A stretch of DNA of 64,000 nucleotides from Nanobdellota archaeon. Lineage in GTDB: Archaea > Nanobdellota > Nanobdellia > Pacearchaeales > GW2011-AR1. The stretch spans positions 147,331 through 211,330 of the forward strand of contig JANLHM010000005.1 in the NCBI GenBank assembly GCA_024654565.1, in the 5' to 3' direction. The notes under the pieces were generated by a model. That model searched no databases. It saw only the letters and a program-made list of their open reading frames with translations, and was not told the DNA's origin. The stretch's first letter is position 1; the number at the start of each line of letters is the position of its first letter. Positions 6,010-24,002 of this stretch are shown in pieces. The translations under genes were made by a program, and so were the position numbers.

Positions 6010-8244
6010 TTAGTGGTAGGTTATTTCTAGTATTGGTCTTTTAGATGAATTTTCATGATCTCCTCCGTATACTCCCCCGTGAGAATCATTGTATTCATTT
6101 ACAAAACCAAATCCATAATTTGAATCCCCGTTTATCCAAGATTGAACTGTAGAAGTAACATCCATCTCATACCATGAAAGAACTCCTTCATATGTAAACT
6201 CCTTCACCAAAATTACTTCATATGAAGGTTTTGTAGTCCAAGTGACGGTATTTTCATTCCAAGGGCTAATCAATTTAACTAAAGACATTTTCGGAATTAA
6301 CGAAATGGAGTTTATAGTTGCCCACCCATATACTTTTAATTTTGCAGAAATTATCTCAGAATTAGATGGAACACCTGAAACATTAAATTGTATTAAAGAT
6401 TCCGATAAATATGCGTGGTTCCCAATTGCTTCATGATCAAACCTAAGAATACTTGTATCAGGATAATTATAGTAAGACTCATCCCCATTTGGATAAAGAT
6501 AATATTTTAACCATGTGTCTTTACCTTCAGGGCCAGGTTGCAAAACTAATGTACTTTGAGAAACTCCTGCAGTAGTAAAGTTCCAAATTGGTCCTTCAAC
6601 AGATTCCCCAAGAGAATTTTTTACGACAACCTTCCAATAAGCTTTTGTATTTGGAGGAAAGAAACTTGCAAAAGTGTAATATGGATTTTGCAGATTTGGA
6701 AGGGGAATTAATGAAGAAGGACTGTCCCCTACATAAAGGTCATATTTTAAAGGAGTATTTGGATCACTACATTCCCAGGATAAAGTTAGGTTATTGTGAA
6801 GCACCCCTATTTGATTGTTTGCAGGATTTGGATTTTTAGGAGGATAACCCGCAACTGAACTTGCAGTCCGAAAGTCCCATAAATCCCCGTGAGTTGAATC
6901 TGCCTTTGAATCAAAAGCAATTACCTTCCAGAAAATCTGCTCATTTGAGGGAAGAGTTCCAAGAGAGTAATTGTTAACTGTTAGATTTTTTATCCTCACT
7001 GGAGTATTAAATCCAACTCCCCATATCAAATCATAATGGAGCGGATCATTATCCGGATCTGAACAATTCCAACTCAAAGTTACAGGAGAAGGAACATTTT
7101 GCGAACTTGTAACTGGAGAAGGGTTTGAAGGTTTGTCGGGAGGCCTATTTGCGCTTCCTGAACTCGCAATTAATTTTTGGGAATCGGACAATGGATAGTT
7201 GTATCCAATGTTAAGACGAGTTATTGGTTTGGCTTCAACATACAACTTTCCCCCTAACCCTACATAAAGATTCCACCAAGGAGTTAATGTGGGAGTGACT
7301 TTTAATTCAAGATATGGTCCAAAACTTACCCCCGTTGCCACCAGTTCATAAATTGAGACACCAAATTTGAAATTGAGGGTTCCTTTGAGAGTTCCTCCAT
7401 TTAAGGACACTTCAACTTCTTTTGAAAGAAAAGCATTTTGGAAATTTTTTGTTAATTTCCAACCGGACTTGTAATTAAGCGAAGAATTTAGAGTAATTTT
7501 ATCCTTAAATCCTCCTTTTGCTTTACCCCCTACTGAAATAGCAGGAACGAATTCGACGGAAAATTCTGGAGTAAAAACAACTCCATAAACAACAACTGGG
7601 GCACCTTTTGCTTCGAATATTGTTGACTTTGTACTGTAAGTCAAGGCCCCCGTTACATCAACACTTAAGTCGATATCCATAACTAAATTAAAGTTTGAAT
7701 TAACCTCAAGGGGAGAAATATTTATCTTTCCGCCAATACTTCCGCTAAGGTTTATACTCCCTTCTGACCTTATCTGATCATTTAAAGTCAGGTTGTTTCC
7801 ATCTTTGTCAAAAATAAGGTAACTCAAAGAAAAAGAACCGCCTTCAACTTCCGCTTCTTTTTCAAGAGATTTTTTAAGGCTTGTAGCTGAAAGGTTATAT
7901 TCAACTGAACCTTTAAAAGCTTCATCAAGCGAAGCGGGGGAAGTATAAACAGTATTTCCTGAGATTGAACTTACTCTACGAAGAAACCCTTTTGGGGCTT
8001 TTGAATTGTATCCTTCAGAAAAAATTATGTCTCCCGCTTTAAAATTGTGCTTGGAGAAGGAGATTGAATTTGCAGTCAGTGAGGTTATTTTTTCCATTTG
8101 TTCTTTTTTTACCTGTACAGCTCCATCTCTAAGAGTCAATCCTCCAGATTGGGTAATGGGTTCTGGAACAACAACAGGATTATCATCTTTTTTGCAAGAT
8201 GAAAAAAACAAAACAAAAAACAAAAATAAAATTATTTTTTTCAT
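6010..8244 (-). CDS. Secreted lipoprotein with FN3-like repeats and C-terminal DNRLRE-like domain
   Basis: MKKIILFLFFVLFFSSCKKDD lipobox; two PXNPXPXXXXXXV..LSW.CSDP repeats; DTWLKYYLYPNGDESYYNYPDTSILRFDH...SAKLKVYGW...VTWTTKPSY...DVTSTVQSWINGDSNYGFGF. Confidence 0.75.
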   Translation of the reverse strand: MKKIILFLFFVLFFSSCKKDDNPVVVPEPITQSGGLTLRDGAVQVKKEQMEKITSLTANSISFSKHNFKAGDIIFSEGYNSKAPKGFLRRVSSISGNTVYTSPASLDEAFKGSVEYNLSATSLKKSLEKEAEVEGGSFSLSYLIFDKDGNNLTLNDQIRSEGSINLSGSIGGKINISPLEVNSNFNLVMDIDLSVDVTGALTYSTKSTIFEAKGAPVVVYGVVFTPEFSVEFVPAISVGGKAKGGFKDKITLNSSLNYKSGWKLTKNFQNAFLSKEVEVSLNGGTLKGTLNFKFGVSIYELVATGVSFGPYLELKVTPTLTPWWNLYVGLGGKLYVEAKPITRLNIGYNYPLSDSQKLIASSGSANRPPDKPSNPSPVTSSQNVPSPVTLSWNCSDPDNDPLHYDLIWGVGFNTPVRIKNLTVNNYSLGTLPSNEQIFWKVIAFDSKADSTHGDLWDFRTASSVAGYPPKNPNPANNQIGVLHNNLTLSWECSDPNTPLKYDLYVGDSPSSLIPLPNLQNPYYTFASFFPPNTKAYWKVVVKNSLGESVEGPIWNFTTAGVSQSTLVLQPGPEGKDTWLKYYLYPNGDESYYNYPDTSILRFDHEAIGNHAYLSESLIQFNVSGVPSNSEIISAKLKVYGWATINSISLIPKMSLVKLISPWNENTVTWTTKPSYEVILVKEFTYEGVLSWYEMDVTSTVQSWINGDSNYGFGFVNEYNDSHGGVYGGDHENSSKRPILEITYH

Positions 8245-8296
8245 TTTAACACCTTATAAATTATTTAGAGATTGTGAATTATTTGTAAATTATTTG

Positions 8297-8491
8297 TTAA
8301 GAATGGTACTCATGTCCGATACCATTCGTGTATGTTCTTTTTATTTTTTTTTCTTTAATCAAAACTCTTAAACTTTTGCTCAAAGTCCTTTTACTGATGT
8401 CAAGCTCCCTGCTTATTTTCCCAATTGTTCCCCTTCCACCATTTTCAATAAATTGAGCTAATATGTCCCTTTTGCATTTCATTTTGTTCAC
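8297..8491 (-). CDS. Small helix-turn-helix DNA-binding protein
   Basis: GTIGKISRELDISKRTLSKSLRVLIKEKKIKR wHTH-like. Confidence 0.6.
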   Translation of the reverse strand: MNKMKCKRDILAQFIENGGRGTIGKISRELDISKRTLSKSLRVLIKEKKIKRTYTNGIGHEYHS

Positions 8492-8529
8492 CTTTGAAAT
8501 TATTTTTGAATTATTTAATTAAAAGAAAA

Positions 8530-8564
8530 AAACCTCCTCAACGGAAAAAGAAATGAGGAGGTTT
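8530..8564 (-). terminator. Intrinsic-terminator-like hairpin (copy A of about 50-bp repeat)
   Basis: aaacctcctca/tgaggaggttt 11-bp stem; minus strand continues TTTTTTTCTTTT. Confidence 0.75.
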
Positions 8565-8595
8565 CTTATTGAACAGTTTTGCTTTATTCTTTTGG

Positions 8596-9117
8596 TTACT
8601 TCTTTTTTTGATTTTTTACATAAAAATAAACCTTGTTCTCTTCCTCTATAAAAGGAAATAAATGAACCCATGCTTTAGGATCTTCCTCTGAAAAAGATAG
8701 AATATTTATCCAACACTCTAAGTCCTTTGACTCCGAACAAAAGTTTATCATTCCCAAAGATTTCCTTTCGCATTCAGGAAAGATATTCAAAAACGTACCG
8801 ATAGAATCTCTTTTTGACCTTGAAACAAAATTTAAAAAAACTGAAAAAGAGCTACCTCCTGCAAAAGAGAAGAGATTTAATATTCCCCCCACAGAATCCC
8901 CCCTAGTCTTTGAAGAGAAGCTAATAAATGAAAAAAGGTCCTCAGACTCAGAGAAAACATTTATAATAGTCCAAGAATTTCCTTTTGACTTTGTAAAAAT
9001 GGAAATTACAGACAAAACACTTCCCTTTTTGTTTATTCCCCCAAAGAATCCAAAGATCAATCCTTCTCGGGGGATAAACGCATAAATAAAATTTAAAAGA
9101 AATAATCCTAAATTCAT
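8596..9117 (-). CDS. Repeat-containing hypothetical protein (about 14-15 aa repeats)
   Basis: Tandem S(I/V)G..LN(L/I/F)F...(S/E)....D units. Confidence 0.6.
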   Translation of the reverse strand: MNLGLFLLNFIYAFIPREGLIFGFFGGINKKGSVLSVISIFTKSKGNSWTIINVFSESEDLFSFISFSSKTRGDSVGGILNLFSFAGGSSFSVFLNFVSRSKRDSIGTFLNIFPECERKSLGMINFCSESKDLECWINILSFSEEDPKAWVHLFPFIEEENKVYFYVKNQKKK

Positions 9118-9165
9118 TTTGTTTACCTTTTTGTTTTATTTTTGAATTGTTAATTAAAAGAAAAA

Positions 9166-9200
9166 AAACCTCCTCAACGGAAAAAGAAATGAGGAGGTTT
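9166..9200 (-). terminator. Intrinsic-terminator-like hairpin (copy B)
   Basis: Same hairpin and flanks as 8530..8564; minus strand continues TTTTTTTTCTTTT. Confidence 0.75.
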
Positions 9201-9247
9201 CTTATTGAACAGTTTTTTTTATTTTAGAAATTTGAAAAAAGGGATTA

Positions 9248-9580
9248 TTAACGAACTCTAACTGTCCATCCCACTTTAATTTTATTTTTATTTTTTATCC
9301 ATGGATTTAAGTCCATAATTCTTCTTACAGTGGTTCCGTACCACATGCCTATTGCGGATAATGTGTCTCCCCATTTTACTTGGTAAAAAATAGGGTGGCA
9401 ACAACAATGAGAATGATACTCTATTTTTTTCACTTCTGGAGTTGGTATTGTCTCCTCCTGTGCATGGGGTGGAGGGGAAACGGGGGATTTAGTTGTTTCT
9501 TCTACACTGGAACACCCCATGAAGAAAAAAATAATTAACCCAAAGACAACCATGACAAAAATAACTAAGAATTTTTTCAT
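9248..9580 (-). CDS. LysM-domain lipoprotein
   Basis: Lipobox FFFMGCSS; YQVKWGDTLSAIGMWYGTTVRRIMDLNPWIKNKNKIKVGWTVRV LysM. Confidence 0.82.
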   Translation of the reverse strand: MKKFLVIFVMVVFGLIIFFFMGCSSVEETTKSPVSPPPHAQEETIPTPEVKKIEYHSHCCCHPIFYQVKWGDTLSAIGMWYGTTVRRIMDLNPWIKNKNKIKVGWTVRVR

Positions 9581-9677
9581 TTTAGTACCTATTAGTTTAT
9601 TTTACATGTTAATTAAAAGAGACATCTCGCTTTATTTCTAAATCGGGAGGTCCTTTTTTATACAACGAAATCTAAAT

Positions 9678-10649
9678 TTAGCTTCCACCAAGAATTAATG
9701 GAAGGCCATCTTTTCCTGAACCGATTATCACCACCTTTGCATTGTTTGACCCGGCAATTTTTTCCGTTGCTTCAATCCCCTTCCATTTTAAAAGTTGATC
9801 GCTTATCCCGTGAGAAACAATTGTTTGAAAGTCCGAAATTCCTTTTGCTTCTATTCTTTTTCTTTCGGCTTCCTGAGTTTCCTTCAGCAGGATAAATTCC
9901 ATACGCTGACTTTCCTGTTCGGCTTTTAACTTTTCTTCGATGGAAGCAGTTAGGCCACTAGGAAGGAGAATTTGACGCATGGGGGAAGATTCTATTGTTA
10001 TCCCCCTGGGTCCTACTAACCTTGACAACTCTCTCTCAATTGTTATTGAAAGAGAATCTCTCTTCTGAGTATAGAGTGCTTTCGCATCATACCCGGCAGT
10101 AACACCCCTTACAACTGATCTAAATTGAGGAATTATGATCTTTTCAACGTAATCTTCCCCAACAGTTTTGTATATTTTGTTGGCGTCTTCAAAACTTAAA
10201 CTGAAAATTAAACTTATTTCCAGTTCGATATTCAAACCTTCTTTTGAAGGAACGTTCATTACCTCTTTCAACTCCTGCGTACGTGCATCGAATTTGACGA
10301 CTTTTGCCAAGGGGTTAACAAGACTAATTCCGGGGTAAAGAGTGTTATCCCTTACATTTCCAAATATATCTACTACCCCGACATGACCCGCGGGAATAAT
10401 TGTAAAAAACTGGACAAACGACAGAACAAAGAACAGTATTGAAAAACCGAGGGACACTTTTCGAACAAGTGAACCAAATTTGCTGTGACTATTCATTCTA
10501 CGAAAGTTGTGATGAGAATAAAGACTTTCCTCATCTTCTTCTGGTTTTTCCTCTGCAGAAGAAGATTTTAATTTCCTCTCTTTTAAATAATGAAAGAGAA
10601 ACACTGAAACAGAAATTAGAAACAATAGAACAAAAATTATGAATAACAT
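9678..10649 (-). CDS. SPFH/Band 7 (prohibitin-like) membrane protein
   Basis: FFTIIPAGHVGVVDIFGNVRDNTLYPGISLVNPLAKVVKFDARTQELKEVMNVPSKEGLNIELEISLIFSL. Confidence 0.9.
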   Translation of the reverse strand: MLFIIFVLLFLISVSVFLFHYLKERKLKSSSAEEKPEEDEESLYSHHNFRRMNSHSKFGSLVRKVSLGFSILFFVLSFVQFFTIIPAGHVGVVDIFGNVRDNTLYPGISLVNPLAKVVKFDARTQELKEVMNVPSKEGLNIELEISLIFSLSFEDANKIYKTVGEDYVEKIIIPQFRSVVRGVTAGYDAKALYTQKRDSLSITIERELSRLVGPRGITIESSPMRQILLPSGLTASIEEKLKAEQESQRMEFILLKETQEAERKRIEAKGISDFQTIVSHGISDQLLKWKGIEATEKIAGSNNAKVVIIGSGKDGLPLILGGS

Positions 10650-10843
10650 TTGTGACTCCTAAATTAATTTTTTGGAAACAATTAGTTACTTGAACAATTG
10701 AACTAAACAAAAAATCCAACCTTTCTCTAAGAGATTTGGGAAAATTTACAAAATAAGAATTAAAGAAAAGCCCCCCAAGGGAAAAAAGGGAGGGGCTTTA
10801 ATTAAAAGAGTTTGTTAAAGATTAAAACAACCAAGAAGATAAA

Positions 10844-11911
10844 TTATAGTTTACCCTGTTCAGCTAGACGCATGAAATAAGAATCAAAAATAAACTGAAC
10901 ATTCTCCTTGTCCCCCTGAACACTTCCGTCTGGATACCTAATCCCTATTTCGTCAACACTTTTTGCTTTTTCCCCCAGAAGATCATGCTCAAAGCAGAAC
11001 TTTCTTACTCTATCCATATTTGTTTTTAGTTCTTGGCTTTCAGTATATTCCGCAGCTTCTTTAGGAGTATAAAACATCGCAGTTGTCTTTAGTTGGGCTT
11101 TGTAATCCCCAACAGAACAACCTGCTGATTCAGACATGATTTCAAGGGCTTTTTGACTTTCCTTATTTCTTTTGGTCATTATCCCCATAACTTCATACCA
11201 TGCCCCAACAAGCGCTTTACCTATATTTGGATTTTTTTCCAATTTTTTTGTATTAACACAAAGCAAATCTAGAATTTCACCCGGGATTTCGCTTGAGTTG
11301 AAGACATCACGTACTCCAACTTCTTTCAAGATGTTCATTGCCATAGGATTCCATGTGACAACCACTTTTTGGCTTTTGTTTGCCGTGAAAATGGCTTCAA
11401 TATCTGAATCAATCGTGTTTAGAATTTGAACATCACTTTCTTTCATCCCATTCTTTTCTAATCCGCGATTAAGAAGATATTGAGAAACAGATAATTCAGT
11501 GAGCATCGCTTGTTTGATGTCTTTCATTTTCAGTCCATCTCGTGTCAACACTTTATCGCTTCCGTTTGAGAAGTCCCCCATTAGAAGGGAAGTCGTTGTG
11601 ACTTTGGCTACACAAGGCATACCAAGAGTTTCCATATTTGTCATCACAACGCCATCAACTTGTCCAGAAACGTATGCTTCAATTGAAGGAATGTAATCCA
11701 TCCTTAGCAGTTCTATATCCAAGCCATATTTCTCGCCCCATTTTTTTACAATTCCGGATTTGTAGGCAAAGTCCCAGGGTTGCCAACCGGCATAAATGGA
11801 CCAGGCAATTTTAACCTTTTGTTTTTTTACCGGAACATGGTTTGCTCCAATATTTAACGATAAGAACAAAAAGGCAAGAATGAACAGTAGAACAGGTTTG
11901 AACTTTTTCAT
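10844..11911 (-). CDS. NitT/TauT-type ABC transporter substrate-binding protein (resembles urea-carboxylase-region SBP)
   Basis: Signal peptide; KVKIAWSIYAGWQPWDFAYKSGIVKKWGEKYGLDIELLRMDYIPSIEAYVSGQVDGVVMTNME. Confidence 0.8.
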   Translation of the reverse strand: MKKFKPVLLFILAFLFLSLNIGANHVPVKKQKVKIAWSIYAGWQPWDFAYKSGIVKKWGEKYGLDIELLRMDYIPSIEAYVSGQVDGVVMTNMETLGMPCVAKVTTTSLLMGDFSNGSDKVLTRDGLKMKDIKQAMLTELSVSQYLLNRGLEKNGMKESDVQILNTIDSDIEAIFTANKSQKVVVTWNPMAMNILKEVGVRDVFNSSEIPGEILDLLCVNTKKLEKNPNIGKALVGAWYEVMGIMTKRNKESQKALEIMSESAGCSVGDYKAQLKTTAMFYTPKEAAEYTESQELKTNMDRVRKFCFEHDLLGEKAKSVDEIGIRYPDGSVQGDKENVQFIFDSYFMRLAEQGKL

Positions 11912-12072
11912 GAGTTTTTTCCTTTATGAATTTTAAAAATTTAGAACATTAGAACAATTGTTTAAAGAACAGAACTAAAACAGAACTCTCCCCTTCTTTG
12001 GAAGGAATAAAAAACCCCCTTGTTTGGAAGGTATAAAAGAATCCCCTATTTTTTATGAATGCAAGAACCGAA

Positions 12073-13272
12073 CTAAACCTTCTCACCCATTTCTTCAACA
12101 GAGATGTGGATTTTGCTTCTTGCTGAATCACCTTTTTCTAATTTGGTGATTGTTTCTTCGGCGTCAAGAGCGAGTTTATTTAGTTCTTGGATATTTTGGC
12201 TCATTCCCGAAAGAGCATTTCTTCTAAATGTGGTGATGTCTTCAACCGCTTCATTTATATTCCTAAACGCAGCCTTTAAAGATTCCATTTCAATCATTGT
12301 TGAAGATGACTGTTTTTGTATTTCGACTCCCTGAGTTTTGAGCCTCTCTGAAGTGTGTACAATAAGAGCACTTGTAATTTTGTTAACGCCATCTATTTTA
12401 TCCAACACAATGCGCTGGTGGTTTAAAACAAAAGCTGCAGTAACAGCAACGTTAAGAGCATGAATTGTTACATTTAGAGCACGATTCACACCACGAATAA
12501 GTTCCCGATTATTTCTAATCAGGATCTCATAAACAATTACTCCCTGCTGATTTACAGCCAGAGTTTGCTGTAAGTCTATTATCCTTTGCTTCATCGGAAA
12601 TAATAATTCTTCTTGAACAAATTTGTATTTCTGGTCTTCAGGTGACATGTTAATAAGTCTCTCACTCATTTCTTCATCCATGAGGATTCCCAGTTCAATT
12701 GCTTTTTTTAATCCAATTGAAGACTTGCGCATTTTTTCCTGATCTACTGCGAGTATTTTATTGTCCCGTATTAACTCATCTCTTCCAAACTTTAGAGATT
12801 TAATTATTGCGGAGATTATGGTTTGCCCGCTGGAGTACTTATCAAAGTATGCCTTCATCTTGTTCCCGACAAATGGAATTTTTGAAATTAATTTTGACCA
12901 GGCAGTTACACTGAAATCAAAGTTAACGGGATCAAGTTCTTCCACCTGATTTTTTAGTTCAAGAAGAGCCTGTGCTACCTTACCCCCATCTTTTCCTTCG
13001 GCATCTGCGAGGTTTTTTATGGATTCTTTTAACAATTCACTGTTTGGATTTGCCCTCTTTTGATCCTCAGAGGACATCTCATCAATGGCATCCCTTTTTT
13101 CATTTGCATTTATGCTCTCATCAAAAAGCATATCGACGAAACCTTTGGCCTTTCCAACTAACACAGGATCCGCGGTTTCTTTGGTTACGGGAACATCTTC
13201 AACAGAGATTGGTTTCATCTCAGTTTGAATGTTTTCTGCGGTGGCTACCACCAGCTGATTATTTCCAGACAT
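12073..13272 (-). CDS. TelA-family toxic anion resistance protein
   Basis: LDPVNFDF...KLISKIPFVGNKMKAYFDKYSSGQTIISAIIKSLKFGRDELIRDNKIL...; coiled-coil C-terminus. Confidence 0.85.
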   Translation of the reverse strand: MSGNNQLVVATAENIQTEMKPISVEDVPVTKETADPVLVGKAKGFVDMLFDESINANEKRDAIDEMSSEDQKRANPNSELLKESIKNLADAEGKDGGKVAQALLELKNQVEELDPVNFDFSVTAWSKLISKIPFVGNKMKAYFDKYSSGQTIISAIIKSLKFGRDELIRDNKILAVDQEKMRKSSIGLKKAIELGILMDEEMSERLINMSPEDQKYKFVQEELLFPMKQRIIDLQQTLAVNQQGVIVYEILIRNNRELIRGVNRALNVTIHALNVAVTAAFVLNHQRIVLDKIDGVNKITSALIVHTSERLKTQGVEIQKQSSSTMIEMESLKAAFRNINEAVEDITTFRRNALSGMSQNIQELNKLALDAEETITKLEKGDSARSKIHISVEEMGEKV

Positions 13273-13350
13273 AATAACACCTCAATTTATTTTAAAAAAT
13301 AGGACATTAATTACAATTATAGAAAATTCTATTACACTTTTAGAAAATCC

Positions 13351-14196
13351 CTATACTTTAATAGAGACTTTTTCAAAGTCTTTTGAAAGCTCTTTACCCA
13401 ACTGAACCATTTCTGAAAGTTGAGACATAGAGTCTTCCATATTGACATTTGATTCCCCTGAAAAAGTTTTCATACTTCCAATAGAGGCTGACGTTTCATC
13501 TAGAAGAGTTATCGCTTTTTCATTTTGTAGAAGAAGAAACTCAACTTTATCCTGTTGACTCCTTAAGAGTTGAAGCCGCTTTTCTAACACGTCGAGCTCG
13601 GCTTTTTCTACGTCAGTTACAATCCCGTCAGAATGTATTGATTTTTTTCTCTTTTCTACTCTTTTGACATCAATCTCTAAAAGACTTTTTGTCAAGTTGA
13701 CAACTTCACTCAGATTATCCACTATTGAAAGAAAAACTTCCTGGGTAATTCCCATATACCTTTTGTAAGCTAATTCACCCGCATTAAGTTTTTCACCTAA
13801 AAGTTCACAGAACCTTTCAAAACGACCTTCTGCAGCTTCTAGTTGTTCCTTTCCGCGAATGCAACCAACTTCAACGAGGCTTTCCTTTAAGTTTTCTCTC
13901 TTCAGTTCTGTTATCCTTTCAACTTCCTTTCTAAGATTTTCAAAGTATTCGTGACCAAACGATTCTGCTTTGATAAATCTCTTATAGAGATATGTTCCTC
14001 CTGCAACAACCCCTGCCCCTACTGTAGCAATAACACCTGCTGGCGGGAAACCAAACAATGTAGTATATAGGAGTGAAAGAACCGTCGCTGAAGAAAATCC
14101 CAAGAAAGTTGTATTATTGGCCAGGGATTTGTTTAAAGCTTTTTTAGTTGCTTCTTTTGAGAAATCCTCCACCGATGGAGCTCTTATTTGTTTCAT
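13351..14196 (-). CDS. Membrane/coiled-coil protein, positional counterpart of XpaC-like TelA partner
   Basis: Hydrophobic N-terminal hairpin + long coiled coil; adjacent to TelA. Confidence 0.5.
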   Translation of the reverse strand: MKQIRAPSVEDFSKEATKKALNKSLANNTTFLGFSSATVLSLLYTTLFGFPPAGVIATVGAGVVAGGTYLYKRFIKAESFGHEYFENLRKEVERITELKRENLKESLVEVGCIRGKEQLEAAEGRFERFCELLGEKLNAGELAYKRYMGITQEVFLSIVDNLSEVVNLTKSLLEIDVKRVEKRKKSIHSDGIVTDVEKAELDVLEKRLQLLRSQQDKVEFLLLQNEKAITLLDETSASIGSMKTFSGESNVNMEDSMSQLSEMVQLGKELSKDFEKVSIKV

Positions 14197-14272
14197 AATA
14201 ATCCTTTCTTTTTTTGAATTTATTTGATTAAAGTTTGCTTGATTAAATTTTAGTTAATTAAAGTTTAATTGA

Positions 14273-15832
14273 TTAAAGGGTATTTCCTTCAAGAAGAACA
14301 AACTCAACTCGTGCTCTCCGGTTCATCCATTCTCTTGTGGATTCACCTGGCTTTCTTATGGGAGGTATGCCATTTGCATATCCTTTAGAACGAAGACGAT
14401 TTACATTTATTCCGTGGATAATTAACCTTTGAAGAACTATTTCAGACCTTTTCTGAGAGAGTTTAAGGTTCTCATTGTAGTCTCCATCTCCCGTGTGACC
14501 CCTGATCTGAATTCGGTAATTTGGATAGTTGTTAATCAATAAGTTAGCCATCTGATCAACAAGTTCCTCTCCCTTTGAATCTAGATAATCTATCCCCTGT
14601 TTGAAGGTAATGTCTTCAACTCTCATTACTCCAACCTCTCTTAACCGATCCCATTCTGAATCAGATAAGGGATTGAATTGGATTTCCTTTCCGACATCCA
14701 CTTTAAGATTTTGAACACCATCTTTAACCATTTCTTTTAGAAATGAAGAATTGACTACCATAAATGGATCTGAAAATTCATGAGTGTTGAAAGTTTTTGT
14801 TCTTCCCATAACATCACTTGTTGCAATAATTGAACTAAACAACTGATCCCTGTAACTTCCTCCTGCAACTAAAGGAATTCCGAATTGTTCAGCACAATTT
14901 TCTTCAAAATTAAACCAGTCTATTTTTTCAATCATTCCTTTTATCACTTCTTCTTCAAGGCCGGTAAACCTTTCCATGTCTTCAATCATCCCGGTTTTGT
15001 CATTAGAATACATTCTTAAGACCCTAAAATAAGTTTTAAGAAACGATTTAATTATATTTGGTTCATTAAGAATAAAGTCTGATCTGAAAACAAGTACATC
15101 TATTATGTACCCTTTGAATTTATCACTTCCCCAAACAACTTTCATATCAAGTTTTGACACTGCACGAGAGATGTCTGGTTCCCACATAGTGTAATAGCGT
15201 TTTCTTGTTTTATTGTTTTCTTTGTCTTTCTTTGCCTGATTATAAACTTCACTTGAACCACCTGCATCAACTTTCCAGGAAGAATTTTTTGTAAGGTAAT
15301 CAAGATCGAAGTTGATTATAAGCAAGTCGTTAAGAAAAGAACTAGGAGAGGATGGAGTTGAGACTATTTTTATCTCACTGTCATTAAGGTCATTAACTTT
15401 CCACTTTTCATTAATATTCTCCTTAAAAGTTAAGAGGGCATCTGCTCCTTTAGACTCGCAAAGAGAGATAACAACTGCTCCTGGAAAGTTATATTTTATT
15501 CCATGCCTTAGATATTCATTTATTGGGAGAACTATGAAATCGTATTCTCCGTCCTTAAATTTTTTCAAACGTTCATCATAAAGTCCGCCGTCATCAGTAA
15601 ACTTAAGGTGAAATCCTGATTTTGGCGCAAGGAGTCGCATCTTTTGGGACTGAAGAAAGAAATACCCAAAATAGCTGTCTCCGGCCCACCTTACTTCTTG
15701 GCCACCAGTTGCATCAGAAGAATCGAACAATTCTCCTTCTGAAATCCATGGATCAAGAACAAATTTATACAGGATGATTAAAACAACCAACCCTATAAAA
15801 ATGAAGGCCACAAACTTTTGTTTTGCAGTCAT
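14273..15832 (-). CDS. Substrate-binding protein fused to C-terminal OmpA-like domain
   Basis: TM anchor, SBP-like body, then YRIQIRGHTGDGDYNENLKLSQKRSEIVLQRLIIHGINVNRLRSKGYANGIPPI...NRRARVEFVLL. Confidence 0.83.
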   Translation of the reverse strand: MTAKQKFVAFIFIGLVVLIILYKFVLDPWISEGELFDSSDATGGQEVRWAGDSYFGYFFLQSQKMRLLAPKSGFHLKFTDDGGLYDERLKKFKDGEYDFIVLPINEYLRHGIKYNFPGAVVISLCESKGADALLTFKENINEKWKVNDLNDSEIKIVSTPSSPSSFLNDLLIINFDLDYLTKNSSWKVDAGGSSEVYNQAKKDKENNKTRKRYYTMWEPDISRAVSKLDMKVVWGSDKFKGYIIDVLVFRSDFILNEPNIIKSFLKTYFRVLRMYSNDKTGMIEDMERFTGLEEEVIKGMIEKIDWFNFEENCAEQFGIPLVAGGSYRDQLFSSIIATSDVMGRTKTFNTHEFSDPFMVVNSSFLKEMVKDGVQNLKVDVGKEIQFNPLSDSEWDRLREVGVMRVEDITFKQGIDYLDSKGEELVDQMANLLINNYPNYRIQIRGHTGDGDYNENLKLSQKRSEIVLQRLIIHGINVNRLRSKGYANGIPPIRKPGESTREWMNRRARVEFVLLEGNTL

Positions 15833-15851
15833 TTTTTACTCCGTTTAAAAA

Positions 15852-15883
15852 TTTGGCGAAGAAAACTTTTTCTCCTCGCCAAA
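15852..15883 (-). terminator. Hairpin after 15909..16613
   Basis: tttggcga/tcgccaaa stem. Confidence 0.5.
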
Positions 15884-15908
15884 CTAATTAAAGAATTTGA
15901 ATTATGTT

Positions 15909-16613
15909 TTAGAGAGAGTCAAAGTCAATGGAATCAAAACTTTCAGATTCCGAGACTGCTCCTTTGAGTGCTTTTGTTAACTCCCCTTTACTTTCCGCAG
16001 ACCGGTATTCCCTTGAATACCTTTTTAGAGGATGATCTCCATCAACTTGAAACCCAATAGCATACAGATCAATAAAAGAATATGTTGAAATTTGACTACA
16101 TATCCTTGAAAAAGAAGAACTGTTGTCAGCCTCCCCATCAGTTACAACAATTATCCTAAAATTACCATATCCAAGCTGTTTCTTGTACTGAAGAGTAATT
16201 GACTCAAGAGCCGTTTCGAGAGACTCTGTAAGAGGAGTTCCTCCACCGGCATCTACCTCTTTAATTACAGAAACAAATTTACTCCTGTTTTGATTTCCTA
16301 AAGGAATCATCTCTTTAGTTACATCTGAATCGAAAAGGAACAAACCGAGATTTGCATCTTCAGGAACAATTTTTAAGAATTCGAAAATTGCTTCTTTTGC
16401 AATTCTAATTTTATCCCCGGACATCGAACCAGAAGCATCAAGAATGAAGTAAAAGTTCTTTGTAGTTACCGCTTTTCCTTCAATGTCGAACTTTATTTCA
16501 ATTTGTACAAAATTTTCCTGAAGATTTGAGTCTTCATAAAAATCAATTTTCTCGTTTTTACACCCAAAGAGTGCAAGAAAGAGAAGAAACAATAAGAGAT
16601 TTATGTATTTCAT
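15909..16613 (-). CDS. VWA-domain lipoprotein
   Basis: Lipobox LALFGCKN; MIDAS-like FYFILDASGSMSGDKI...GGGTPLTESLETALESI...IVVTDGEAD. Confidence 0.9.
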   Translation of the reverse strand: MKYINLLLFLLFLALFGCKNEKIDFYEDSNLQENFVQIEIKFDIEGKAVTTKNFYFILDASGSMSGDKIRIAKEAIFEFLKIVPEDANLGLFLFDSDVTKEMIPLGNQNRSKFVSVIKEVDAGGGTPLTESLETALESITLQYKKQLGYGNFRIIVVTDGEADNSSSFSRICSQISTYSFIDLYAIGFQVDGDHPLKRYSREYRSAESKGELTKALKGAVSESESFDSIDFDSL

Positions 16614-16646
16614 TTTTTTACCTTAAAATATTTTTGTTAAAGAGTT

Positions 16647-18359
16647 TTAAAAATCAAAGTCAGAACTTTCAGTTTCCATCTGTTTGACTCTAAAAACCAC
16701 ACGCCTGTTTTCTTCCCACATTCTTTTTGCGCGATCAAAGTCCTTTCCTTTCATGGATTTGATTTCTTCAACACTAAATTTTGGGGAATTAATAGAAAGT
16801 CCTGCAGGAATAAACTGAGAATGGTCCACCTTGAGACCGATCTTCTTTGCATATGAAAGAACATAATTTTTTACTTGTTCTGCCCTTTCAAGAGATTGAT
16901 TCTTTGCGACCTGTTTCATTTGCTCCACTTCTTTTTTAGGTGTTCCTGAATCCTCAGCCCTTTTTATCCCGGTGGGTTCAGTATGGCCTTCAATAATTAA
17001 AAGTGCACCATAATAAGTTTGAGCCATCTCTATAACTTTTTTGAATGACTTTTCATATTCCTTACCATTAAAATCCACTTGATTTGGCTCAAAGTATATT
17101 TCAAATGAAAATAAAGTTCCTTCTTCATCCCAGTTTTCTGATTCAGAACTTATTTTATTTTCAACTACTTTTTGAACCTTGTCAACATTATACTTTGGCT
17201 TTTCTTCTTTAACAGAAGCGTATTTAAGTCCGCTTGCTAAAGAGTTGTAGTCCAAGTTTCCTGAATTTAAGCTGAATGAACCAGCAATTAAACCCATTGA
17301 TTTAAATGAAGATTGTATTTCAGAATTGAGGTTTTTCAGGTTTCTTGTTGTTCCCGTTCCGGTGAAAAAAGAAACATTTCCGTTAAAACCTGCAAATTCA
17401 CAGTCACCAAGAAGTCCTTCAGTTTCTGCAGCCATCGTAGGAGTATCAAATAACATGCTTGAACTAAAAGATAAAAGTTTAGTCCACTTTGCACCTTTTG
17501 ATTTCTTTAAGTCCCTTAAAGATTCTTCACCTTTCATCAATGCATTTACAAAGAGGTTTACTTTATCCGGATTTGCATTCTTGTAATCTTTTCTTGTAGC
17601 ATAAACATCTGCAATAATTCTAGATGCGGATTTTGTTGAAAGAAGAATCTTTGCACCTTTTACTGAATTGTCTTTTCCTGTTCCAGTCCCACCCGAAGTT
17701 AAAAGGAGTGCATCAGGAATAATACACATAACCGCATCAAGGGTTTTGTCATTTAAGAAAGCTGTAACGGGGTCAACTATTTTTCCTTTGGAATCGTAAG
17801 TTGGAAAAGTTAACTCTTTATAATAAACAAATTGGACATCGTTAAGTCTTCCTGCGTCCCTAAACAATTTTGCTGCATAGTCCATGTGTGGGCCATACAA
17901 CTGAAGAGCAACTTTCTTTATGTTTTTGATATTTTTTCCTGGACGAACGACCATTGCGTCACCCCCGGCTGACCAGGTGAGTTGATAAATTACTTCAAGC
18001 TCCACACCTTTTTTAAGAAGGGCGTCAGTTGCAAGGTTTACCATCGCAAGAGTTCCGCGTAGGTAGGGGGTTCTTCCTGTAAGAACGTCATTTGCTTGTT
18101 TTTCAAGAACGTCTTCCCTATAGAGGCTTATGTTTAACCCGGCCTGTGAAAAAAATCCTTCCTGTTGGGTTAGGATTGTTAAAAGATCTCCTCCCCATAA
18201 AATAATTGGAAGGTCGAAGTTTGTTGCGGATTTTACCTGACCTTTACTGCCTGAAAGTGTTAGAGGCTTTGGCTGGAGAGTTTCATGTTGAGAAAAACCC
18301 GTCCCTGCAAATAAGAACAAGAAAAGAAATAACGAAGAAAACTTAATTAGAGTTTTCAT
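16647..18359 (-). CDS. NitT/TauT-type substrate-binding protein fused to C-terminal OmpA-like domain
   Basis: Signal peptide from ATG at 18359 preceded by TAAGGAGCTC; SBP body; ALLIIEGHTEPTG...QSLERAEQVKNYVLSYA...DRAKRMWEENRRVVFRV. Confidence 0.83.
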   Translation of the reverse strand: MKTLIKFSSLFLFLFLFAGTGFSQHETLQPKPLTLSGSKGQVKSATNFDLPIILWGGDLLTILTQQEGFFSQAGLNISLYREDVLEKQANDVLTGRTPYLRGTLAMVNLATDALLKKGVELEVIYQLTWSAGGDAMVVRPGKNIKNIKKVALQLYGPHMDYAAKLFRDAGRLNDVQFVYYKELTFPTYDSKGKIVDPVTAFLNDKTLDAVMCIIPDALLLTSGGTGTGKDNSVKGAKILLSTKSASRIIADVYATRKDYKNANPDKVNLFVNALMKGEESLRDLKKSKGAKWTKLLSFSSSMLFDTPTMAAETEGLLGDCEFAGFNGNVSFFTGTGTTRNLKNLNSEIQSSFKSMGLIAGSFSLNSGNLDYNSLASGLKYASVKEEKPKYNVDKVQKVVENKISSESENWDEEGTLFSFEIYFEPNQVDFNGKEYEKSFKKVIEMAQTYYGALLIIEGHTEPTGIKRAEDSGTPKKEVEQMKQVAKNQSLERAEQVKNYVLSYAKKIGLKVDHSQFIPAGLSINSPKFSVEEIKSMKGKDFDRAKRMWEENRRVVFRVKQMETESSDFDF

Positions 18360-18440
18360 TTTTGAGCTCCTTATATATTGGTTAATAATTTTATTAGTTA
18401 ATAATTTGTTTTTTAGAAAGAACATTTAAAAGAAAATTAC

Positions 18441-19445
18441 TTAATCTAAAATTGCATCTGCATGAGTTAAATCGAACTCTGAAATATGTTGAAGAAACTT
18501 TGGATTCATTCCTTCATGGCGAATGTCCTGCATTAACTGAACAAATTCCATTGTTCCTTTAATTGAAGTTGGAGCTGGAATGGGCCATGGAAGTGGAATA
18601 TCTTTCACGATCTTTGCACCCACTCCCGGCTCCCCATTATTAATAGAATAATACTGAGAAATCACAATTACTCTTGTACCCAGAAACAATGCTTCTTCAA
18701 GGTCATGTGTTACAAAGATTACTGTTTTTTTGTCTTTGTTCCACTGTTCTAAAAGAAACACTTGCATCTCTTCCCTTGTTCCGATATCTAAAGACTTAAA
18801 ACATTCATCCATAAGTAATACTTCCGGATCCATAATAAAAGTTTGAGCGATGGAAACCCTTTGTTGCATTCCTCCTGAAAGTTCATAAGGATTTGCATGC
18901 CTATCCTTGTATAGACCGATTCTGTTTAAGTATTCATCCGCCCTTTCGTAAAATTCTTTACGTTTATGGTGATGAGGTGTATCGCACAGCTCATTATGAA
19001 GTTTTGGAAACCGGGTTTTAAATCCAAGGAATTGCGAAACAAACCCGATAAGGTTTAATGGATTGTAGTACCTCTCAAAAAGATCAAACTCTTTTAAGAG
19101 GAGGCCAAGAACAACATTTTCCCTTACAGTTAAATTTGGGAAAAGGGAATGCTTTTGAAAAACAATCCCGCGAGTTTCATCAGGACCAAGTATCTCCTTC
19201 CCGTGCATTAAAGCTTGTCCTGAATATGGCTTTTCAGACCCGAGAAACATCCTTAAAAGAGTGGATTTTCCACATCCTGAAGGGCCAACTAAAGTTATAA
19301 ATTCCCCCTTTTTTACATTCAGATTTATTTCGTTAAGAACCGTCTTAATCCCTCCATCGACGGAATATTTTTGGGAAGCATTTATTAGTTGAAGAACATA
19401 ATTTTTGCCTTCACCATTTTTGCTACCATTTGATTTTTGATTCAT
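18441..19445 (-). CDS. ABC transporter ATP-binding protein (NitT/TauT family)
   Basis: Walker A GPSGCGKST, signature LSGGMQQRVSIAQ, Walker B VLLMDEC. Confidence 0.95.
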   Translation of the reverse strand: MNQKSNGSKNGEGKNYVLQLINASQKYSVDGGIKTVLNEINLNVKKGEFITLVGPSGCGKSTLLRMFLGSEKPYSGQALMHGKEILGPDETRGIVFQKHSLFPNLTVRENVVLGLLLKEFDLFERYYNPLNLIGFVSQFLGFKTRFPKLHNELCDTPHHHKRKEFYERADEYLNRIGLYKDRHANPYELSGGMQQRVSIAQTFIMDPEVLLMDECFKSLDIGTREEMQVFLLEQWNKDKKTVIFVTHDLEEALFLGTRVIVISQYYSINNGEPGVGAKIVKDIPLPWPIPAPTSIKGTMEFVQLMQDIRHEGMNPKFLQHISEFDLTHADAILD

Positions 19446-19484
19446 AATTTTTTTCCTTAAGACTTTTCTAAATTTTTACTTATT

Positions 19485-20867
19485 TTACTTATTTAACCAT
19501 TTATACCTCTTCTTGATCCACATTTGAATTAAGAAGTCTAGAAGAAACGCTGCTAAACAGAGCCAACCTACATAAACAAGGATAAGGGGCATATCCATAT
19601 ATCTCTTCGCAAGAAAAATTCTGTAACCAAGACCCGCAGTTGCTGACAACGCTTCACCCACAATTAAGAAAGTGACGATAGACTTTATTGAAAGCCTAAA
19701 CGTGTCTAAAACCATCGGAAATATTCTTGGAAGAATTATTTTGAAGATTAATTCTGGATTGCTTGCCTTTAAAGTCATTGCTTTGATTATGCTTTCTTGC
19801 GGAACTCCTTTTGCTCTTAATCTAGTGTCAAGGATTAATGTTGTAGAAGTTCCAAGAACAATAAGCATAATTTTTGCAGTTTCATCCAATCCAAACGCAA
19901 TAAAGAGAATTGGAAGTAAAGCCATCGGGGGAATTTTGTCAAAAAGGGCCATATATCCACCGAAGACTTTATCTATATATGGAAATGAACCCATAAAGAG
20001 TCCAACAAATAAACTTAAGAAAACGATTCCAGAAGAAATCACAAATCTCTGAAGAGAGACAAGACTGTCTTCCCATAAACGTATTTCTCCATCTCTGTCT
20101 TTTTCAAAAGCTACCCTTTTAGAAGCATCTACAATTTGTTCAACACTTGGAATTAATTTGTCGTCCGGGTTTTCTTCATGCCTTGCTATTGAAGCCTGAA
20201 TATAAAAGAAAGTAGCCAAAATAAAAGGTAATAAAGGAAGAGTTATCTTTGCAAATTTTCCTGGCTTTGCCAAAACCCGAAGAAATTTTTTAAAGAGGGG
20301 AAAGGACGTTTTAAACAAAAGAACCATGAATAAATTTACAAGAACTTGAGTGATTAAACAAAAGAGTAGAAGTAATCCAATTGAAGAACAAAATTCCGTT
20401 AGATTTGTCCATGCATAAACACTAATTGTTATATTTATTAATGAAAAAAATCCAACATGAAACTTCGTCCAGAAATATTTAATAGAAACTAATCCTGCAA
20501 CAAGGGTGGCTGATGAAAGAAGGATTCCGAGTTTCAATCCCCTTAAAAGAGTTTCTATTGGTTCATCTGAAACATCTATTGAAGACAAAATTGCAAAATA
20601 CCCTATCCCGAAAGCCATCACCCATATTAGAGGGATAAATCTGCGATCTGGATCAAAAGGGGTTTTGATATTCACTATTAAATAAACTCCCATAAAAATA
20701 AAGAGAGTTAGAATTATGACATTAATAATAAGATTGGCCTCTGAGGAAAATTGAAATAAATCAGAACCTATCTTCAGAAAATGAGAACCTGTTCCCGCCG
20801 AGTTTTCAATGAAAACAAAGACGAGGGAAGCAGATAAGCAACCTAATAACCATTTGAATAGTTTCAT
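19485..20867 (-). CDS. ABC transporter permease with extra N-terminal TM region
   Basis: EAA-loop-like MTLKASNPELIFKIILPRIFPMVLDTFRLSIKSIVTFLIVGE. Confidence 0.88.
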   Translation of the reverse strand: MKLFKWLLGCLSASLVFVFIENSAGTGSHFLKIGSDLFQFSSEANLIINVIILTLFIFMGVYLIVNIKTPFDPDRRFIPLIWVMAFGIGYFAILSSIDVSDEPIETLLRGLKLGILLSSATLVAGLVSIKYFWTKFHVGFFSLINITISVYAWTNLTEFCSSIGLLLLFCLITQVLVNLFMVLLFKTSFPLFKKFLRVLAKPGKFAKITLPLLPFILATFFYIQASIARHEENPDDKLIPSVEQIVDASKRVAFEKDRDGEIRLWEDSLVSLQRFVISSGIVFLSLFVGLFMGSFPYIDKVFGGYMALFDKIPPMALLPILFIAFGLDETAKIMLIVLGTSTTLILDTRLRAKGVPQESIIKAMTLKASNPELIFKIILPRIFPMVLDTFRLSIKSIVTFLIVGEALSATAGLGYRIFLAKRYMDMPLILVYVGWLCLAAFLLDFLIQMWIKKRYKWLNK

Positions 20868-20912
20868 GGTTTTTCCTTAAATTATTGATAAATTATTGAA
20901 TTAATTTGAAAA

Positions 20913-22151
20913 CTATATTTTTCCTTCTTCTACTAACTCTCCTTCTTGAGTACTCTCTGTGTCAAAGCTGAAGTTGACCAGGGACGTGGCATTTTTCAAT
21001 TCAAGTCTCTCTTTTAGAGTATTTTTGAATTTTTCAAAAGTGAGGTCTTTTTTTATTACCTCTTCTTCTAAGTAAGTTCCTTGAATCAGGGATTCCTGAA
21101 CTGTTTTATTTAGTTTAGTTAATGTGAACGTCTGAACAGTTGAATAATAAGTTCTCGTAAATTCTTCCACAAATGCGCCCTGCTCCCTTGGAGTGAACTT
21201 TGCAAGGTCCCAATATTCTTCTTCACTAAACTCAATATCCATATTCTTCTTTATGTAATGTGCCCACATTTTTTTTAATTGAGTCTCATTCGGGTATTCT
21301 ATTTCAATTGGAGAGAGCCTTCCTTCCCTTACAATCGGTGCTTCGAAATCGGCTTTTTCGTCATTTGTTGAAATTGCAAATATCAGTTCCCGATAGTTCC
21401 CGATGTATTTCTTTAGAACATCTCTCCCTTCCTTGTAGTATTTATCAGAAGACCCGCCTTCGTCATCAGCCATTAATGTAGAAGCTTCATCTAAATATAC
21501 AAAAGAGGGAAGGTTTCTCTCTTTTGATTCGACCAAGCAAGCTTGAATGATTGCTTCGAGTGCCTTTCCCCTTGAACCAACGTACTGATCAGACACTTCC
21601 GCTGAAAGATGAATCTCTCGGACATAGCAACCCATCTTTTCGAAAATTTTGGAAATCGTTTTTATAAGGTGTGACTTTCCTGTTCCGCCTTTACCATATA
21701 AAATTGCTCCGGGGTACTTTGGTTCTTTTCCACGAATTAAATCAGCGATTGAAGTTTTAAGAAGAACTTCATTTAAAACCATTGGAGTAAAAAAGGCAGA
21801 GTTCAAGGGGGATAAAACTTCTTCTATCTGTTCCGGAGTCATCTTTCCAGGGATGTAAATTAATTTTTCAAGAACTTCCTTTTCTTCCTTCTCTGACAGT
21901 TTATTTATATCGGCCTCAAAGAAAAAGGCATTTTCCGATTCAAGATAAGGAATTTTTAATTCTTCAAGGGCTTTTCTGACCGCTGGAGAAACAGTTTTAT
22001 CTTCCAAAACAACTAACCACAAATTACCTTTATTACTTCTCCATAGGTTTTTTGGACGCTTTTCTCCGTTGTTTAATTCCTTGTAGAATTCAGATATTTT
22101 TTCCAACACAATGTTGTCAAAAAACGCAAGATTTGGATTTGCATTGTCCAT
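20913..22151 (-). CDS. AAA+ ATPase
   Basis: AILYGKGGTGKSHLIKTI Walker A; SFVYLDEASTL Walker B; sensor-1 IFAISTND. Confidence 0.88.
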   Translation of the reverse strand: MDNANPNLAFFDNIVLEKISEFYKELNNGEKRPKNLWRSNKGNLWLVVLEDKTVSPAVRKALEELKIPYLESENAFFFEADINKLSEKEEKEVLEKLIYIPGKMTPEQIEEVLSPLNSAFFTPMVLNEVLLKTSIADLIRGKEPKYPGAILYGKGGTGKSHLIKTISKIFEKMGCYVREIHLSAEVSDQYVGSRGKALEAIIQACLVESKERNLPSFVYLDEASTLMADDEGGSSDKYYKEGRDVLKKYIGNYRELIFAISTNDEKADFEAPIVREGRLSPIEIEYPNETQLKKMWAHYIKKNMDIEFSEEEYWDLAKFTPREQGAFVEEFTRTYYSTVQTFTLTKLNKTVQESLIQGTYLEEEVIKKDLTFEKFKNTLKERLELKNATSLVNFSFDTESTQEGELVEEGKI

Positions 22152-22153
22152 TT

Positions 22154-22357
22154 TTACTTCTCCTTATTTGAAGGATTTTTTTTAAGAATTAAATAAATGG
22201 CGTACCCTATCCCAAAGATCATAAAGATTAGAATAATTCCTAGGGAGATCATAAATGAAATTATCCACATTATCATACTAACAACAAGTTCCGCGATACC
22301 CGTAAAAATTAAGAACAGGACAACAATTATTATTATTAAAATTGTTTTATGTTTCAT
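22154..22357 (-). CDS. Small TM protein
   Basis: Two hydrophobic helices; TTAATTAG leader. Confidence 0.5.
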   Translation of the reverse strand: MKHKTILIIIIVVLFLIFTGIAELVVSMIMWIISFMISLGIILIFMIFGIGYAIYLILKKNPSNKEK

Positions 22358-22408
22358 TTTGTTTTACCTTTGATATTTTGTTTTTATTTTTGTTAATTAG
22401 AGATTAAG

Positions 22409-22440
22409 AAACCCTTCGCTTCAGAGGAATTGAAGGGTTT
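22409..22440 (-). terminator. Hairpin after 22461..22916
   Basis: aaacccttc/gaagggttt stem. Confidence 0.6.
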
Positions 22441-22460
22441 TTAATTGAGAATTATTAAAG

Positions 22461-22916
22461 TCACTTTTTGAATTCTTTCTTGAATCCCAAAATTAGTCCG
22501 ACAATTAGTCCGGGTTGAGTCCCCATAATCAAACCTAAAAGTGTGAAAACGATAGGATCCCCCCCAAATAACAACCTCATGATTCCTACAGTCATCCCAA
22601 GAAACATTCCAATAGAAGAGAAACCGACAACCCATCTTACTAATCCTTGTTCTCCATATCCCTTCAATTTTCCTTTGATAGTCAAAGTGATAAAGACGGA
22701 AATAAGAAAAATAAGGAGATAATGAAAAAGGACCGGATAAATTATTGGAATTTGCTTTTTTGAAAAAACATCTGCACCCATATCCAGTCGGCTCCATTCA
22801 TTGACTAAATGGAGAAAATTGAAACCGAAAAAAATTAAGAAGGAAATTGTGAGTAAAGCGAAGCCAAGCTCTTTAGAAGTTGGCAAAGGAAGTTGTTTTC
22901 GTTCCATTTGATTCAC
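22461..22916 (-). CDS. Multi-TM hypothetical protein
   Basis: 4 hydrophobic segments; leader AAAGGTGAATCAAATG. Confidence 0.6.
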   Translation of the reverse strand: MNQMERKQLPLPTSKELGFALLTISFLIFFGFNFLHLVNEWSRLDMGADVFSKKQIPIIYPVLFHYLLIFLISVFITLTIKGKLKGYGEQGLVRWVVGFSSIGMFLGMTVGIMRLLFGGDPIVFTLLGLIMGTQPGLIVGLILGFKKEFKK

Positions 22917-22962
22917 CTTTTTGTTTGTTGTTATTTTTGTTAATTAAAAATTTGGTCAAGAC

Positions 22963-23547
22963 TTAAAGAGCCTTTGTGAAATATGCGGAAAATAGAGTGT
23001 TTTCATTATTGAAGTCCCACATTATTTTTCCGAAAAGAGACATGTCCTCCGAAATTTCGAACTTCTGTTTCAAACCAATGAACTTATTCCATTCATCTTT
23101 CTTGAACTTGAGGATTTCACAACTAACGGAGAAGCTACTTATGTTCAAACTAACACTTTCGAAGCTGAAAAGGAATCTCGGTTCAATCCCTGCTTTTTCT
23201 ATTGTCCCTTTTTTGCAACACCCAATCCCGTTCCATGATGTTAGCGTAAAAAAATCCCAAGTATAAATTATTCTTCCGGCAACAAGAGGAATTCCTCCTA
23301 AGAACCCAATTGTTGAAGCACAGGAGAAGTTTGCGACCTTTTTCCCATAGTTAAATAGGAATTTTGTTGAACTTCCCTTTAACTCCATAAAAGTGCTTTC
23401 GATGTCATTTGAAAGGTCTAATTGAACTTCTAACTTTGGAGAAAGAGCAGCATCTCCAAAACTAAGGTTTACTTTGTCAATTTTATACTGTGAAAATGAC
23501 AAGTTTAGGTTGAAAAGAACAACGAGAGAAAGAACGAATGTTTTCAT
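22963..23547 (-). CDS. Secreted hypothetical protein
   Basis: Signal peptide MKTFVLSLVVLFNLNLSFSQ; beta-rich body. Confidence 0.6.
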   Translation of the reverse strand: MKTFVLSLVVLFNLNLSFSQYKIDKVNLSFGDAALSPKLEVQLDLSNDIESTFMELKGSSTKFLFNYGKKVANFSCASTIGFLGGIPLVAGRIIYTWDFFTLTSWNGIGCCKKGTIEKAGIEPRFLFSFESVSLNISSFSVSCEILKFKKDEWNKFIGLKQKFEISEDMSLFGKIMWDFNNENTLFSAYFTKAL

Positions 23548-23623
23548 TTTTTTCCTTTAGATTTTTGTTATTTTTTTATTTTTTTGTTATTTTGAATTTT
23601 TTATCTGTTAATTATCTGAAAAG

Positions 23624-23950
23624 TTATTCAAACTTGAATACATTAAGCAGGATTATAATTAGGACAACAATTCCTACACAGAAGATGATAATATCCTTTT
23701 TCTTAGAGGAGGGGTTACTTAATTTAATGAAAAATATATTTACAGAAACAAATGGGAGGAGAACCCAATATAAGAGGAGAGCATAGGAGCTTATAGCCGG
23801 TTTTACATAAATGAAAAGGAGACTAAAGAACAGAAAGATTAAACCAGATAAAAGGATTGAAGTACGGGAAATATCTATTTTTTTGTTGAATAAGGAGCCC
23901 AGCACTAAAATAAGAAAAATTAGGACAGACACAAGAATTATAGTAAACAT
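23624..23950 (-). CDS. Small multi-TM hypothetical protein
   Basis: Hydrophobic segments; leader AAAGGTGAACAAATG. Confidence 0.55.
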   Translation of the reverse strand: MFTIILVSVLIFLILVLGSLFNKKIDISRTSILLSGLIFLFFSLLFIYVKPAISSYALLLYWVLLPFVSVNIFFIKLSNPSSKKKDIIIFCVGIVVLIIILLNVFKFE

Positions 23951-24002
23951 TTGTTCACCTTTTAAGTTTGTTAATAAAAATAATTTAATGGTCGTTAAAC
24001 AC

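Follow-up and report, generated by a model that had tools for sequence, protein, structure and literature searches.

Systems related to the one reported here have been described in bacteria. In Listeria a telA mutant is 4-fold more sensitive to nisin, and telA/xpaC is induced by a membrane-active bacteriocin (PMC12791056). Operons that combine PspA/Snf7 with an AAA+ ATPase, an ATP-binding cassette (ABC) transporter and a PBPB-OmpA protein have been put forward as a link between transport and the remodelling of membranes (Ravi et al. 2024, PMC11237479). Here we analyse a stretch of 64,000 nucleotides from a Nanobdellota archaeon (assembly GCA_024654565.1, contig JANLHM010000005.1, positions 147,331 to 211,330), referred to below as the window. 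Positions 9248-22151 of the window hold a block of eleven open reading frames (ORFs), all open and intact, which lie on the minus strand with spacings of 15-194 nucleotides. Eight of the eleven genes form a unit that is conserved in bacteria and on mobile elements. We read the block as a bacterial envelope operon that was probably acquired by a DPANN-type archaeon and kept intact, and that may act as an importer-coupled membrane-protection module. The function is assigned by analogy, and we put the probability of this reading at roughly 0.5.

The unit consists of two substrate-binding proteins (SBPs) that end in OmpA-like domains, a VWA protein, a membrane coiled-coil protein, TelA, a free SBP, a permease and an ABC ATPase. 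Searches against Pfam and NCBIfam identified most of these parts. SBP-OmpA1 (16647-18425) is an NMT1-like binding protein with a signal-peptide-like start, consistent with secretion, and a C-terminal OmpA-like domain. This domain alone scores 17.3 bits, under the Pfam cutoff of 27.2, and the family profile aligns to the solved OmpA-like domain 3td3 (E 6e-5). The adjoining VWA lipoprotein-like protein (15909-16613; VWA E 9e-13) has the lipobox LFGC and an intact metal-ion-dependent adhesion site, DASGS. SBP-OmpA2 (14273-15832) is predicted from hydropathy to be anchored through an N-terminal helix, and its OmpA domain is recognised directly (PF00691, E 4e-12, 46.7 bits). The coiled-coil protein in the TelA-partner position (13351-14196) is hydrophobic over a segment close to the N-terminus; it matched no Pfam family, XpaC included, and one homologue gave only coiled-coil matches below cutoff. 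TelA itself (12073-13272) is unambiguous, with 197.9 bits to PF05816 against a cutoff of 30 (E 3e-58, residues 13-331 of 332). The free SBP (10844-11911) scores 433.2 bits to TIGR03427, above the equivalog cutoff of 333.9. The permease (19485-20867; BPD_transp_1, PF00528, E 1e-14) has an N-terminal membrane region that appears extended in a transmembrane scan, and the importer ATPase (18441-19445; ABC_tran, PF00005, E 2e-33) has intact Walker A, signature and Walker B motifs. With an ABC ATPase, a BPD permease and an NMT1-like SBP all present, the locus encodes a complete importer of the NitT/TauT type. The three remaining genes of the block encode an AAA+ ATPase (20913-22151; PF00004, 6e-10), in which, as in the importer ATPase, the catalytic motifs are kept, an SPFH protein (9678-10649; Band_7, E 4e-25) and a LysM lipoprotein-like protein (9248-9580; E 2e-9). 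The domain calls of an earlier note, made from the sequence by eye, were thus borne out by profile searches, that for the OmpA domain of SBP-OmpA1 through its family profile.

When a collection of one genome per species was searched with an SBP-OmpA1 profile, 183 relatives turned up, all in bacterial loci, and we compared the neighbourhoods of the best 80. The loci were gathered through SBP-OmpA1, so the counts that follow describe the neighbourhood of that gene. Most of the loci with enough sequence run from SBP-OmpA1 through VWA, SBP-OmpA2, the coiled-coil protein, TelA, the SBP and the permease to the ATPase, or have the importer genes shifted to the front, and the co-occurrence that the earlier note had asked for is clear. 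In the 39 loci flanked on both sides the VWA gene, which adjoins SBP-OmpA1, and SBP-OmpA2 are always present (39 of 39), followed by the coiled-coil protein (35), TelA or a substitute (32), the SBP (30), and the permease and ATPase (29 each). An AAA+ gene lies within 12 kb in 12 of the 39. The AAA+ ATPase, which had been counted as a part of the system, is better described as a recurrent neighbour than as a constant member. The inclusion of SPFH and LysM did not hold; relatives of neither were found near the unit in any compared locus but the window, and we regard both as local neighbours. Among the bacterial hosts are Pseudomonadota, Thermodesulfobacteriota, Acidobacteriota, Bacteroidota, Spirochaetota and candidate-phyla-radiation bacteria.

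These counts bear on the main rival to our reading, in which the locus is an ordinary nutrient importer for a nitrogen or sulfur compound, equipped with several tethered receptors, and the role of TelA and its partner is limited to regulation or localisation of the importer, with no part in stress. The importer core is complete, TIGR03427 is matched above cutoff, and the best scores of both the ATPase and the permease are to taurine, nitrate and sulfonate systems. Set against this, SBP-OmpA1, VWA and SBP-OmpA2 are the genes that vary least, at 39 of 39, while the importer is found in 29 of 39, a figure to be read with the caveat that several loci counted as missing the importer may hold it elsewhere. 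Three binding proteins, a VWA protein and TelA are also more than an importer needs. We therefore consider a plain importer a real possibility, at odds well short of even.

The unit is also carried by mobile elements. The Vibrio megaplasmids NZ_AP019851 and NZ_AP025146 and a 545-kb viral contig (IMGVR_UViG_3300037484_000435) hold the same gene set in near-identical order, and a 595-kb phage record (LR756511.1) carries the unit with another coiled-coil protein at the position of TelA. Searches of viral contigs with single proteins from the window gave no match, and the SBP-OmpA1 alignment gave one. On the 545-kb contig, by reading, homing-endonuclease-like genes lie just before the unit (8781-9932 in locus L099) and between the SBP and the permease (17300-18163). 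In the phage record, genes that resemble GroES and DnaJ come immediately after the unit (23534-24930 in locus L017, by reading). A plasmid of Vibrio coralliilyticus has only a distant SBP-OmpA1 and an adjoining VWA gene (9800-12845 in locus L018), a pair that may represent the unit in minimal form.

Since Vibrio megaplasmids and two phage or viral contigs of more than 540 kb carry it, the unit could be defence or exclusion cargo, an envelope system that blocks entry of phages or bacteriocins and was spread by plasmids and huge phages before being passed to archaea. The link between TelA and nisin tolerance fits this idea, and plasmid tellurite systems, which the combination of VWA and TelA recalls, also confer phage inhibition and colicin resistance. 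Most carriers, on the other hand, are bacterial genome contigs and not known mobile elements. A scan of the cluster against PADLOC-DB matched only generic ATPase and MotB-like families and no defence signature protein, and no defence genes recur near the unit among the compared loci. A defence role is in our view unlikely.

OmpA and LysM domains suggested to the earlier note a system anchored to peptidoglycan, with which the archaeon could dock to bacterial cells. Diaminopimelate is bound by AbOmpA through Asp271 and Arg286 (PMC12108004). Alignment to 3td3 puts these residues at the motifs GHSD and LSxxRA. In 3td3 the two lie 15 residues from each other, the spacing expected from the numbering. 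All 84 SBP-OmpA1 sequences compared, which include those of two further archaea, a genus-mate (G007) and a member of the same class (G394), have the Arg, and 82 of them have the Asp. Both exceptions are archaeal, with Glu in the window, where GHTE replaces GHSD, and Asn in G394. The copy in G007 keeps the Asp and has Tyr in place of His two residues earlier. With random placement the chance that both exceptions among the 84 fall within the three archaeal copies is ~9e-4, for a site that was looked at because of the wall question and with no pre-set test. In SBP-OmpA2 the Asp is absent from nearly all members of every origin, and the window has Gly at this position. Both OmpA domains of the window keep the Arg, and neither has the diaminopimelate-binding Asp. 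Neither a Mur ligase nor LspA was detected in the host genome, which is 87.6% complete. Taken together, the Asp changes, the form of SBP-OmpA2 and the lack of Mur ligase and LspA argue against peptidoglycan docking and for a tether that has been weakened or redirected.

Docking to the peptidoglycan of bacterial hosts is accordingly very unlikely. The LysM gene beside the cluster and the Asp retained in G007 would suit it, as would the epibiotic habit of many DPANN archaea; the known hosts of most DPANN are archaea, however, the LysM gene is not conserved with the unit, and Glu and Asn replace the Asp in the window and G394 only. Nor is a system specific to contact with bacteria supported, since the unit is common in bacteria of many lineages, with many carriers in Pseudomonadota, Acidobacteriota and desulfobacterial lineages, and is found on plasmids and in huge phages as well.

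The chromosomal setting of the block is archaeal. The host genome is a draft of 772 kb in 12 contigs with 0.5% contamination, and the contig of the window (253 kb) is of DPANN type. By reading, the window encodes rps11, RNA polymerase subunit D, rpl13, rps9, a HerA-type ATPase and PolD. The block lies between rpoD (824-1534) and rps11 on one side and HerA (24231-26210), the single tRNA-Leu of the window, rpl13 and rps9 on the other. In G007 the unit occupies the same rpoD-HerA site with the same gene order, in an interval of ~42 kb. In five other genus-mates this interval is ~5-9 kb and holds no unit, and several of them share a surface protein (6010-8244) or an oxidoreductase (1539-2567) with the window. 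Because these genomes have the flanking genes in a short interval, the additional DNA of the window can be placed at ~8.2-24.2 kb, the stretch from 8245 to 24230 between the genus-shared surface protein and HerA having no counterpart in them. In G394 the unit is on a contig of 70 kb, and the remaining genes there appear archaeal by reading (Elp3, methionyl-tRNA synthetase, membrane pyrophosphatase). The unit is rare in this archaeal phylum, being found in 2 of 371 genomes sampled across it; G007 came from a separate search of relatives. Codon usage of the cluster follows that of the host, with a correlation of relative synonymous codon usage of r = 0.95 and a slightly higher GC content at third codon positions (0.31 against 0.26), which reflects either long residence or a donor of similar composition. 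No clear direct repeats that would mark integration were found around the block. That bacterial DNA was joined to an archaeal contig by binning or assembly, as a 12-contig draft and the slightly raised third-position GC might allow, is hardly credible given archaeal genes on both flanks, host-like codon usage, the independent occurrence at the same site in G007 and a unit beside archaeal genes on one contig in G394.

In a tree of SBP-OmpA1 the three archaeal copies fall in a six-member group with Bacteroidota, which belongs to a larger clade that also includes Acidobacteriota, Poribacteria and Aminicenantes. Six concatenated proteins recover the same group with support of 100/100, again within a clade of Bacteroidota, Acidobacteriota and Poribacteria, and place G007 with two Bacteroidota loci, also at 100/100. 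The concatenate rejects a single archaeal origin (approximately unbiased test, p-AU 3e-34), which suggests that the unit moved from bacteria into DPANN archaea more than once. A bacterial-type origin followed by interdomain acquisition, as first proposed from the gene content, is supported by the position of the archaeal copies inside a bacterial clade together with their archaeal chromosomal site. The Bacteroidota labels in the group rest on metagenome bins, in whose genomes a search for archaeal rpoD, run without a positive control, gave no match. The direction of transfer within the group is not fully certain.

How might such a unit work? Outside the membrane one free and two surface-tethered binding proteins would monitor or collect a small ligand, which the NitT/TauT-type permease and ATPase would import or whose state they would transmit, and the VWA lipoprotein may keep this outer assembly in one piece. 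On the inner side, a membrane-bound scaffold formed by TelA and the membrane coiled-coil protein could guard membrane integrity under envelope stress, and the nearby AAA+ ATPase, where present, may reset it. In bacteria SBP-OmpA1 would tether the assembly to peptidoglycan; in archaea this tether may be gone or weaker, or may now attach to another surface layer. The association with the envelope that the earlier note had seen is supported. Its second option, resistance to an envelope stress, is the best-fitting guess, and we favour it because of the nisin and bacteriocin data for Listeria TelA and the proposal made for the PspA/Snf7 operons. A bolder version, for which the odds appear rather poor, is that the unit is a general, peptidoglycan-independent machine for envelope protection, spread across domains by mobile elements, and that the archaeal OmpA tether now grips the S-layer or the envelope of a host cell.

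The slot directly downstream of the coiled-coil protein holds TelA in 36 loci and an unrelated coiled-coil protein in 9, and two further unlabelled loci, G394 among them, score as TelA in Pfam. The substitute of phage LR756511 is related to that of Acidobacteriota (hhalign probability 96.6%), and the exchange of TelA for a substitute suggests a shared role. AlphaFold models of TelA and the substitute are of low confidence, with a predicted local distance difference test (pLDDT) score of 64 and 68, respectively, and VIPP1 and CdvB appear among their insignificant coiled-coil fold matches.

Several observations weigh against our reading. The idea that the substitute of Acidobacteriota and phage LR756511 is a PspA found no support in Pfam, in a search of those genomes with PF04012 or in profile-profile comparison, and fold searches with the low-confidence models gave no match below E 0.001; the step of membrane remodelling is therefore drawn by analogy. 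No LspA for lipoprotein processing of the bacterial type was detected in the host, which puts the way in which the VWA lipoprotein would be anchored in question. The archaeal sequences number only three, and the Asp change could be drift. The tree of SBP-OmpA1 alone does not reject archaeal monophyly (p-AU 0.069). Finally, the urea named in the title of TIGR03427 is not evidence for the ligand here, and no urea carboxylase or urea transport gene is among the cluster genes.

Some features of the region merit a brief description. The surface protein at 6010-8244 carries a CBM96 domain and a lipobox of bacterial type (FSSCKKDD), and is found in the same place in several genus-mates although LspA is undetected. 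Weak SBP matches in two further genomes proved by gene-neighbourhood comparison not to be the unit. The rpoD-HerA interval of G007 contains many small membrane or lipoprotein-like genes, mostly unlike those of the window, and is possibly an insertion hot spot. Beside the block, two 81-nucleotide copies (8500-8580 and 9136-9216, 93% identical) with the hairpin sequence CCTCCTCA...TGAGGAGG flank an ORF at 8596-9117 and may be duplicated terminators or regulatory leaders. Elsewhere in the window, bacterial-type uvrB, uvrC and uvrA stand side by side in this archaeal genome (31079-37964, by reading), and the large subunit of DNA polymerase D (45488-50350, 1620 amino acids) has an apparent intein when its translation is read by eye.

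The unit is widespread but uncharacterised, occurring across many bacterial phyla, plasmids and giant phages. A PspA-containing bacterial relative is already mentioned in one sentence of a 2024 paper (PMC11237479); in the open-licence literature we found no description of the TelA form, the VWA/SBP-OmpA core or the archaeal copies, nor of carriage by plasmids and phages. The role of TelA proteins is a long-standing question, which the unit makes approachable in a concrete way. It is also an example of a whole envelope assembly that appears to have been transferred between domains into DPANN archaea. Apparent repeated transfer to archaea with no detectable peptidoglycan synthesis, and a change of the wall-binding residue found only there, would separate a wall-dependent from a wall-independent role, and the archaeal copies serve as a natural test of the operon's action in cells that lack a wall.

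Compared with known systems, the locus shares an ABC ATPase, a permease, an SBP-OmpA fusion and an AAA+ neighbour with the operons of Ravi et al. 2024 (PMC11237479). It differs from them in having TelA with no PspA/Snf7 found, three binding proteins, and a VWA protein and coiled-coil partner in the constant core, and in its archaeal, plasmid and phage carriage; TelA and VWA are absent from the main text of that paper. Likewise, where the phage shock protein (PSP) system has PspA, the Pfam search of the window operon found no PspA_IM30 and TelA holds the slot. A TelA gene beside a membrane coiled-coil gene is also the arrangement of the TelA/XpaC (YaaN) tellurite and nisin tolerance pair, for example lmo1966-lmo1967 of Listeria, but here the partner is not recognised by Pfam as XpaC and the two genes lie within an importer/OmpA/VWA operon. 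The NitT/TauT importers (TauABC, SsuABC, NrtABC and the SBP of TIGR03427) have binding protein, permease and ATPase families in common with the unit, in which two of the three binding proteins have OmpA domains, the permease is extended, and TelA, VWA and AAA+ proteins are added. The units of the Vibrio megaplasmids and the phage contigs belong to bacterial mobile elements and share the gene set of the archaeal window.

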